A stretch of 64,000 bases of DNA from Planifilum fulgidum. Lineage in GTDB: Bacteria > Bacillota > Bacilli > Thermoactinomycetales > DSM-44946. Where the stretch lies: NCBI RefSeq assembly GCF_900113175.1, contig NZ_FOOK01000009.1, forward strand, positions 1-64,000. The letters are read 5' to 3'. Numbering within the stretch: the stretch's first letter is position 1; every line of letters starts with the position of its first letter. Below are positions 8,593 through 11,631 of the stretch, piece after piece. The position numbers and the translations under genes are program-made. The notes below the pieces were generated by a model. That model was not told the origin of the DNA. It did no database searches and saw nothing but the letters and a program-made list of their open reading frames with translations.

Positions 8593-11244
8593 CTATTTTT
8601 TCTCGTCCTCCAAAATTTCCACGTATCCGCCGGTCCCGTCGACGCGGACGTATTGGCCGTCTCTCAGCTTACGGGTCGCATCCCTCACGCTGACCACGGC
8701 AGGGATGCCGTATTCACGGGCGACGACGGAACCATGGGTCATCATCCCCCCAACTTCCGTCACGAGGGCTTTGGCCGAATGAAACAGGGGCGTCCACCCG
8801 GGATCCGTGTAGGGAGCAACCAGAATCTCCCCTTTGTTCAGCCTTCCCTCCTCCAACCGGCGAACGACTTTGACGTAACCCTCCGCGACCCCCGGAGAGG
8901 CGGGAATGCCGGTCAGAGCGCCGGGAGGCGCCTGATCGCCGCCGATATCCGCCGAAAAGGTTTCCCCCTCGCTGGTGATGACCAGAGGAGGCTCCAGCTT
9001 CCGGTAAACCGCCTCCTCAGCCCTGCGGGAGCGGATGCGCCCTTGGACTTCCTCCCTGTCCAGGCGGTTTTCCAGAAGGGAAATCAACTCCTCCAGCGTC
9101 AAATAATAGACATCCTCCGTCTGATTGAGAACTCCTTTTACAACAAGGGCTTTAGCTTCCTGCAGAAGGGTTTCCCTGTAAAGCCCCAAGTATCGGATGA
9201 TGATGTATTTGGGCAGTTCCCGGATGCCCACGGTGTTTCGGTACAGGGCGATGAGCCGGGCCAACTGCTTGGCTTTCCGGGTTCCGCCCCGCGTCGCCTT
9301 CACCCGCTGAAGCAGGGACCGGATCGCCTCCTGGGCCTGCTTCTCTCCACGTTTGAATTTCTCCCGGTGCTCCCCGGGGGCATTGCTTTTCAGGTGGCTC
9401 AAAATGGAAGGGACGAGCATGGTGGGCGCTTCCCTGTAGCGGACCCGGGTGACATCAATCTCTCCCGGCGCCCGCATCCCGAATTTCTCCATGAAGGCGT
9501 CCAATTTTTCCCGAAACGCGCCGCCGCCCTCCACTTCGCCCAATCCCTCGTAAAAGGTGCGGTCCTCCGCCCGCTCCAGATAGCGGACCACTTCGGGATA
9601 AGGTCTGGCCGCGTCGGCCAAATCCCCGATCACAAGCCCCATCTCGCCGGTGATGTTGCCGGGAGGGGATTTATCCAAGGAGGGGTCCCATTCTTCTCCC
9701 AGCCATTTTTTCATTTTCCTTTTGATGATCCACCTGGCGATGAATCCGGCATAGGTTAAGGCGATCGGATCGATCATCGCATCAAAAATGTTGTGACGCC
9801 GGATCAACCGAATCCGTTCCGCGCCGCAACGCGCAAGCAGCTCCTTTTGAACCCGGTCCAATTCCTGCTCAAAGGCGGTCAAGGCTCTCTTTGCGGCACG
9901 TTCCGGCTCTTCCCAGTACCAGACTCGGATCAGCCGCAGGATCGCTTTTCGGTAGATGGACAAAATGTCTTTCAAGGTGGCAAGCGCTTCCCGCCACACG
10001 CCCCGCTTCGGCGCGAGCCGCCTGAAATCTTCGCTTTGCACCACTTTTTTCAGCGCCAGCAGATTGTCGTCCGCTATCGTGCTTTTGAGAATCCTGCGCT
10101 GGACGGGTTTCAGGAACAGAAGGCTGGAACAATCCCAAAAAGGCCTTCCCCCCGCCTCCGTCAACCGGAACATGGTAATGTCTTCGGGGGCGAGCGACCG
10201 AAAAACGGAGATTCCGAGGGGCTTCATATAATCGGTCATCATTTGGGAGTGACCGACCGAAAGATAGACCCGGTATTCGCCCTTCTTGCCGGAAGGGACG
10301 GGATAGAGGGACGTGACGGGCCGGCTTTGGAGGATGTAGAAGGCATTCCCTTCCAAACACCATTCCACATCCTGTTCGGAACCGTAATGCTTTTCGATCC
10401 GTCGTCCCAAGGCCGCCAGCTCATAAATCTTCGGGTCCGGAAGCGCCTGTTTTTGCCGAAGTTCGGAGGGCAGGTCCCGGACTTCCGTGCCTCCACCCGC
10501 AGCGGGGAATATCCCCTTCTCCTTTTTCGCAATTTGCTTCAGGACGATTTCATCGTCCCGCACCTTGTAAAGATCGGCGGTCACCCTGCCCGAAACCATC
10601 CCTTCCCCCAGTCCGAACCCGGCTTCGATGGAAACGGTGCGCCGATGTCCCGTGACGGGATCCGCCGTAAACAGAATGCCGGACACATCGGGAAAAACCA
10701 TCCGCTGCACCACGACGGCCATCGATGCAGCCCTGTGATCGAACCCGTTCTTGATGCGGTACGTGACGGCCCGATCCGTAAACAGGGAGGCCCAGCATTT
10801 TTTGACCGCTTCCAGGAGCTGCTCTTCCCCCTGGACGTTCAGATAGGTTTCCTGTTGACCCGCGAAGGAAGCGGCCGGCAAATCTTCGGCGGTGGCGCTG
10901 GAACGGACCGCGAAGGAATGATCCGCGCCCAACCGGGTCCAGGCCTTAAGGATCGCCTCCCGAATCGGGGCCGGAAGCGCGGCGGACAGAATGCCTCCAC
11001 GGATCTTTTGCGCCAAAGCGCGAATCTCATCCAGCTGATCCGGCTTCAACCGGTTCAGCTCGTCCAGCCATCCTTCCATTTCCTGCAATTCGTCCGTTAT
11101 GCGGCGGTAAGCCGCTGTCGTGACGCAAAAACCGGGAGGCACCGGCAGACCCGCCCTGTACATTTCTCCCAAATTGGCACCCTTCCCTCCGACAAGCGGC
11201 AGGCTTTGGCGGTCGATTTCCTCAAATGGCAGAACATCCTTCAT
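8593..11244 (-). CDS. PEP-utilising dikinase of the rifamycin phosphotransferase / PEP synthase type
   Basis: 883 residues. The N-terminal ATP-grasp domain (about 1-315) has LVGGKGANLGEM, AVRSSATAEDLPAASFAGQ, GILFTADPVTG and DVEWCLEGNAFYILQSRP. A long helical middle domain (about 320-750) corresponds to the rifamycin-binding region of Rph. The C-terminal swivelling domain carries the phosphohistidine in GGMMTHGSVVAREYGIPAV (His837). Length and layout match Rph (about 867 residues) and Bacillus Pps rather than classical PpsA. It could phosphorylate rifamycins or pyruvate; sequence alone does not decide. Expression appears controlled by the ydaO-type riboswitch and terminator upstream. Confidence 0.85.
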   Translation of the reverse strand: MKDVLPFEEIDRQSLPLVGGKGANLGEMYRAGLPVPPGFCVTTAAYRRITDELQEMEGWLDELNRLKPDQLDEIRALAQKIRGGILSAALPAPIREAILKAWTRLGADHSFAVRSSATAEDLPAASFAGQQETYLNVQGEEQLLEAVKKCWASLFTDRAVTYRIKNGFDHRAASMAVVVQRMVFPDVSGILFTADPVTGHRRTVSIEAGFGLGEGMVSGRVTADLYKVRDDEIVLKQIAKKEKGIFPAAGGGTEVRDLPSELRQKQALPDPKIYELAALGRRIEKHYGSEQDVEWCLEGNAFYILQSRPVTSLYPVPSGKKGEYRVYLSVGHSQMMTDYMKPLGISVFRSLAPEDITMFRLTEAGGRPFWDCSSLLFLKPVQRRILKSTIADDNLLALKKVVQSEDFRRLAPKRGVWREALATLKDILSIYRKAILRLIRVWYWEEPERAAKRALTAFEQELDRVQKELLARCGAERIRLIRRHNIFDAMIDPIALTYAGFIARWIIKRKMKKWLGEEWDPSLDKSPPGNITGEMGLVIGDLADAARPYPEVVRYLERAEDRTFYEGLGEVEGGGAFREKLDAFMEKFGMRAPGEIDVTRVRYREAPTMLVPSILSHLKSNAPGEHREKFKRGEKQAQEAIRSLLQRVKATRGGTRKAKQLARLIALYRNTVGIRELPKYIIIRYLGLYRETLLQEAKALVVKGVLNQTEDVYYLTLEELISLLENRLDREEVQGRIRSRRAEEAVYRKLEPPLVITSEGETFSADIGGDQAPPGALTGIPASPGVAEGYVKVVRRLEEGRLNKGEILVAPYTDPGWTPLFHSAKALVTEVGGMMTHGSVVAREYGIPAVVSVRDATRKLRDGQYVRVDGTGGYVEILEDEKK

Positions 11245-11340
11245 TTTTCCACGTTCCTTTCCGAAAAAATGAAGTCATGCTTGCCGAGATTGAGCTTCGC
11301 GAAGGACAAAAGCTCCGCCGACCGCCACCCTGCCGGATCG

Positions 11341-11377
11341 AAAAAGCCGCGGGAAGGAAGGCTTCCCGCGGCTTTTT
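11341..11377 (-). terminator. Leader terminator in front of the dikinase gene
   Basis: AAAAAGCCGCGGGAAG (11341-11356) pairs with CTTCCCGCGGCTTTTT (11362-11377), giving a very strong hairpin with a T-run on the minus strand. It sits between the riboswitch aptamer and the start codon, where an expression platform is expected. A second small hairpin (CCACG...CGTGG, 11382-11400) lies between aptamer and terminator. Confidence 0.85.
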
Positions 11378-11430
11378 GAACACCACGAATCAAACCGTGG
11401 CACGGCACGACGATCCCCTCCCTCTCAAAA

Positions 11431-11570
11431 CGCTTACGAGGTTAGCTGACGGGTTCGGGTGCTGAGAGTCACCCTACCTGGACGAATCCAGGATTCACCC
11501 CGTGCGGCTTGCAGGCAAGGCCATGAAGCCGCGAGTGGTTCCCCCGCTCCCAGAGTGGGATTCAGCGATT
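11431..11570 (-). promoter_or_regulatory. ydaO/yuaA-type (cyclic di-AMP) riboswitch
   Basis: Read on the minus strand, the leader starts AATCGCTGAATCCCAC, then GAGCGGGGGAACC, a variable hairpin, CGGGGTGAATCCTGG, CCAGGTAGGGTGACTCT, CAGCACCCGAACCCGTC and CAGCTAACCTCGTAAGCG. These blocks and their order match the ydaO aptamer as I remember it, including the GGGGTGAATCC core and the closing GCTAACCTCGTAAGCG. Known members bind cyclic di-AMP and mostly switch transcription off. A strong terminator follows 54 nt downstream, before the dikinase gene. Confidence 0.9.
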
Positions 11571-11601
11571 GAAATGGAAATGATTATTCGGTTGTGGTCT
11601 C

Positions 11602-11631
11602 ATCTTACCCCCCGTGCCCCTTGGATGTCAA
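11602..11631 (-). promoter_or_regulatory. Promoter for the riboswitch-dikinase transcript
   Basis: On the minus strand TTGACA (11626-11631) and TAAGAT (11602-11607) are separated by 18 nt. Transcription would start near 11595, about 25 nt before the aptamer. The promoter lies directly beyond the end of the convergently oriented neighbour's coding region on the same strand (stop at 11659). Confidence 0.7.

Follow-up and report, generated by a model that had tools for sequence, protein, structure and literature searches.

A c-di-AMP-class riboswitch precedes an RPH-like phosphotransferase gene in Planifilum fulgidum and related Thermoactinomycetales

What does a c-di-AMP riboswitch control when the gene behind it encodes an ATP-dependent dikinase? 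The question is raised by a leader and gene on Planifilum fulgidum contig NZ_FOOK01000009.1, within a window of 64,000 nucleotides, the whole stretch of DNA that was analysed. An earlier note had placed a ydaO aptamer at 11570-11431 of the minus strand, with a promoter upstream and a strong terminator at 11341-11377, in front of a gene at 11244 of the RPH/PEP-synthase superfamily. It had offered two physiological readings, a link of c-di-AMP to the PEP/pyruvate node or to rifamycin inactivation, and had recommended a check against the Rfam model RF00379 and a comparison of the leaders of orthologs. The features of the locus are as follows.

11602 to 11631, minus strand: promoter, TTGACA (11631-11626), 18-bp spacer and TAAGAT (11607-11602), from a consensus scan
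11417 to 11577, minus strand: aptamer of the c-di-AMP (ydaO/yuaA) riboswitch class, full-length RF00379 match of 105 bits
11382 to 11401, minus strand: hairpin between aptamer and terminator, GCCACGG / TCGTGGT, with a conserved 7-bp stem
11341 to 11377, minus strand: intrinsic terminator with a 16-bp stem, a 5-nt loop and a U tract, from the inverted repeat and folding
11255 to 11259, minus strand: likely ribosome-binding site AAGGA, 10 nt 5' of the ATG, read from the sequence
8593 to 11244, minus strand: gene of an RPH-like ATP-dependent phosphotransferase (dikinase) of 883 aa, ATG at 11244, from RPH alignment, Pfam and NCBIfam

The covariance model RF00379 matched the minus strand from 11577 to 11417 over model positions 1-134 of 134, with a score of 105 bits (E 6.2e-24) against a gathering score of 38 bits, and the aptamer proposed earlier lies inside this match. 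It was the sole Rfam match within the 64-kb window, and a whole-genome search returned no second RF00379 match; in at least three genomes (its own, G001 and G037) the riboswitch is the only one of its class that was found. The aptamer stands in a 5' leader on the same strand as the gene, together with an expression platform formed by the terminator and the gene start. The promoter is conserved in homologous loci, TTKACA-17/18-TAAGAT or TATGAT being kept in 10 of the 10 cassettes checked. The 7-bp stem of the hairpin between aptamer and terminator is present in all five window-type sequences; most of the six other cassettes have a 7-bp stem whose register is shifted. This hairpin is possibly part of the switching platform. 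The arrangement of aptamer, promoter, terminator and gene is far beyond chance. By its match to the model the leader is a well-formed, ordinary member of the c-di-AMP riboswitch class, and its class predicts a response to that ligand. The genome encodes two DAC-domain proteins, and c-di-AMP can therefore be made.

An open frame in the leader (11408-11242, minus strand) has a GTG start after the purine-rich, Shine-Dalgarno-like tail of the aptamer and passes through the terminator; in G000 and G001 its stop codon overlaps the start codon of the gene (ATGA). Outside these two genomes the frame is broken or has no consistent start, and no small coding sequence is claimed for this part of the leader.

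The terminator was recovered at exactly the coordinates first given for it. Its 16-nt inverted repeat is 100% complementary, its 3' arm ends in TTTTT, and its predicted folding energy is -28 kcal/mol (z = -6.5), with none of 200 shuffled sequences equally stable. Across 11 homologous cassettes its pairs are kept in 96.6% of cells, and three pairs are altered on both sides, compared with a mean of 0.4 for shuffled data. A conserved and covarying antiterminator was also sought in the leader and none was found; the best candidate was kept in 87% of cells, which is not above shuffles. The pairings rejected as not both conserved and covarying were the variable arm of the aptamer with the terminator 5' arm, the 3' strand of P1 with the A tract, the UCGUG 5' of the hairpin with the terminator 5' arm, and the purine tail with the terminator 3' arm. 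When the aptamer was enforced during folding, the predicted occupancy of the terminator arm barely altered, with no consistent change. The failure to find a covarying antiterminator, and a terminator far more stable than any predicted alternative, would fit a decayed or repurposed switch, in which an intact aptamer stands before a terminator that works constitutively or under other regulation, so that c-di-AMP exerts no control. However, stable terminators are normal in OFF switches, and promoter, aptamer, hairpin and terminator have been kept together across three families. We consider a loss of c-di-AMP control to be quite improbable.

The linkage between riboswitch and gene is kept in related heat-loving bacteria; it was surveyed in 42 genomes of the order. 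Five of these (G000, G001, G026, G036 and G037) have the cassette immediately 5' of the ortholog, with terminators at matching places. Locus comparison identified G026 as Lihuaxuella thermophila, G036 as Thermoactinomyces mirandus and G037 as T. vulgaris. In a sixth genome (G016), the same cassette heads an operon of an ABC ATPase, an ABC-2 permease and the ortholog. For the ATPase of the operon type seen in G016, the best NCBIfam match was DrrA, below its cut-off. The cassette is also followed by genes for an ABC ATPase and an ABC-2 permease in G014 and G015. Behind these exporter genes, G014 retains only a short piece of the dikinase gene (L231, 2223-2606), and no dikinase ortholog was found at this third place in G015. 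In the phylogenetic tree, the six linked orthologs and two without the switch (Paenactinomyces and T. daqus) fall into one clade with support of 100/99, so that six of its eight members have the switch, and the linkage label requires at least two changes on the tree. No RPH-like gene followed the riboswitch in any of 100 others sampled across the phylum, each with about 2.5 kb downstream, and RF00379 was not found near homologs of other groups taken from named genomes.

The gene behind the switch belongs to the superfamily expected for it. Pfam placed PPDK_N at residues 16-312 of the 883-aa protein and the PEP-utilizers mobile (phosphohistidine) domain at 803-873, at the C-terminal end. Residues 4-879 aligned over the full length with the RPH structures of Listeria monocytogenes (5FBS/5HV1; E about 1e-205) at 43% identity, and this collinear alignment gives the three-domain order of RPH, with an ATP-grasp domain, a substrate domain and a C-terminal swivel His. 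Of the catalytic and ATP-site residues named for RPH (K22, R117, T136, T523, R666, E667, K670 and H825; PMC4844700), 8/8 are conserved. The corresponding catalytic and phosphate-network residues in the 883-aa protein are K21, R114, T133, T532, R675, E676, K679 and H837, so that the catalytic His and the phosphate-binding Arg/Glu/Lys are common to both enzymes. AlphaFold2 run on an 8-row alignment gave a pLDDT of 45.8, and the model was set aside. Judged from its sequence, the protein is an RPH-like phosphotransferase and not a PEP synthase. A close homolog, with about 53% identity to the Thermoactinomycetales enzyme, occurs in Methanosarcina genomes (L072-L076), which suggests transfer between domains.

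The NCBIfam subfamily of the protein (PRK06241.1-3) is named 'phosphoenolpyruvate synthase', and its superfamily is shared with PEP synthase and PPDK, whose ATP-grasp and phosphohistidine swivel domains it also has. If the gene encoded a true PEP synthase, c-di-AMP would control the PEP/pyruvate node. However, a Pfam search found the pyruvate/PEP-binding domain PF02896 to be absent from the protein, and its domain order differs from that of PEP synthase and PPDK; the catalytic His sits C-terminally, like that of RPH. The PEP_synth equivalog TIGR01418, which has a cut-off of 740, reached 416 bits. At another place the genome encodes a second, PPDK-sized protein that does contain PF02896, and RPH does not act on pyruvate (PMC4844700). 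The absence of PF02896 and the collinearity with RPH from end to end make a link to the PEP/pyruvate node unlikely, and this part of the earlier note did not hold; a true PEP synthase appears highly improbable.

The 43% identity and the complete set of catalytic residues would also fit a strict rifamycin-inactivating RPH, with c-di-AMP gating rifamycin resistance, and the rifamycin-phosphotransferase equivalog RIF_Ptrans_rph is among the best NCBIfam matches of the protein. Its score of 944 bits is nevertheless below the cut-off of 999, whereas L062, from a separate paralog group within the order, passes with 1274 bits. The protein also departs from Listeria RPH in the central domain, where identity is 35% and only 3 of 12 rifamycin-contact residues are identical (P353, M358 and Q334), the alignment being less certain in this domain. 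With few contacts kept and an equivalog score under the cut-off, the rifamycin inactivation proposed earlier is doubtful, although the catalytic residues are in place. We regard a strict RPH as rather unlikely.

Taken with these results, the reading we find probable is an OFF riboswitch that opens the gene of an RPH-like, detoxification-type phosphotransferase as c-di-AMP falls. RNA polymerase would start near 11595 and make the ydaO-class aptamer. At high c-di-AMP the bound aptamer would be stable; the hairpin that follows it would form, as would the 16-bp terminator, and transcription would stop at about 11341. At low c-di-AMP, for example under low K+, an alternative pairing would block the terminator and the phosphotransferase would be transcribed. 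By the chemistry of RPH, the beta-phosphate of ATP would pass to His837 on the swivel domain and on to a hydroxyl group of the small-molecule substrate. That substrate would most likely be xenobiotic or antibiotic-like, not pyruvate. It should be noted that we infer both the ligand response and the antiterminator. The OFF direction is assumed by analogy with kdp of B. thuringiensis, for which in vitro termination rises from 27 to 63% with c-di-AMP (PMC6488665).

An MFS efflux-type gene adjoins the phosphotransferase gene in the window, and ORFs judged by eye to be of TetR type adjoin switch-less homologs. Together with the ABC exporter operon, this context suggests small-molecule detoxification. 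In a speculative extension, to which we give very little weight, the cassette would have spread in part of the Thermoactinomycetales to detoxification genes, those of the RPH-like phosphotransferase, the DrrA-like ABC exporter and the ICMT-like and PNPOx-like enzymes, and would form a circuit of antibiotic defence. If a compound drained K+ from the cell, for instance a K+ ionophore made by compost actinomycetes, c-di-AMP would fall, and this fall would induce the enzymes that phosphorylate and export that compound.

Other genes were found behind this riboswitch class. The cassette of promoter, aptamer, hairpin and terminator also stands before an ICMT-like methyltransferase gene in G014 (L232) and G040 (L248) and a PNPOx-like flavoprotein gene in G015 (L236), loci that give the impression of a cassette copied to further targets. 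At other loci of the order, riboswitches of the class lie before genes that, judged by eye, seem to encode K+ transporters and hydrolases of the cell wall or spore. A search for a KimA relative gave none in G000, G001 or G037 and one in the control, G016. Riboswitches of the class also precede a CBS-domain gene resembling the c-di-AMP receptor CbpB/DarB at L241 (G026:C35), L247 (G012:C153), L249 (G027:C44) and L023 (G022:C1); the CBS-domain protein of L241 scored 104.6 bits against NF041630, which has a cut-off of 125. If this likeness is true, a c-di-AMP riboswitch would control a c-di-AMP receptor. Many riboswitches of the phylum (L128-L227) precede ORFs resembling lysine 2,3-aminomutase or an opine-type dehydrogenase.

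This locus shares with the ydaO/yuaA riboswitches of B. subtilis kimA and B. thuringiensis kdpFABC the full-length aptamer and the order in which promoter, aptamer, intrinsic terminator and gene follow one another. Whereas the known targets of that class are K+/osmolyte transport or cell-wall genes, the target here is an RPH-like phosphotransferase, accompanied in one genus by an ABC exporter. Riboswitch control of RPH itself is not described in the literature covered, and here a riboswitch is present upstream of an RPH-like gene. Full-text searches returned no paper tying c-di-AMP riboswitches to a PEP synthase or RPH-like enzyme; an earlier listing is possible in Block 2010 or Nelson 2013, which reportedly contain lists of riboswitch-associated genes. 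The gene groups named for c-di-AMP riboswitches in reviews (PMC7266159, PMC3766115) are without an RPH-like target. The gene would be a new regulon member for a known riboswitch class; the aptamer is ordinary and the target gene unusual. With a conserved switch before an antibiotic-kinase-like enzyme, the c-di-AMP regulon would reach as far as small-molecule modification. The switch would also help to approach the physiological trigger and the substrate of an enzyme family that is large, mostly uncharacterised and listed in databases as 'phosphoenolpyruvate synthase'.
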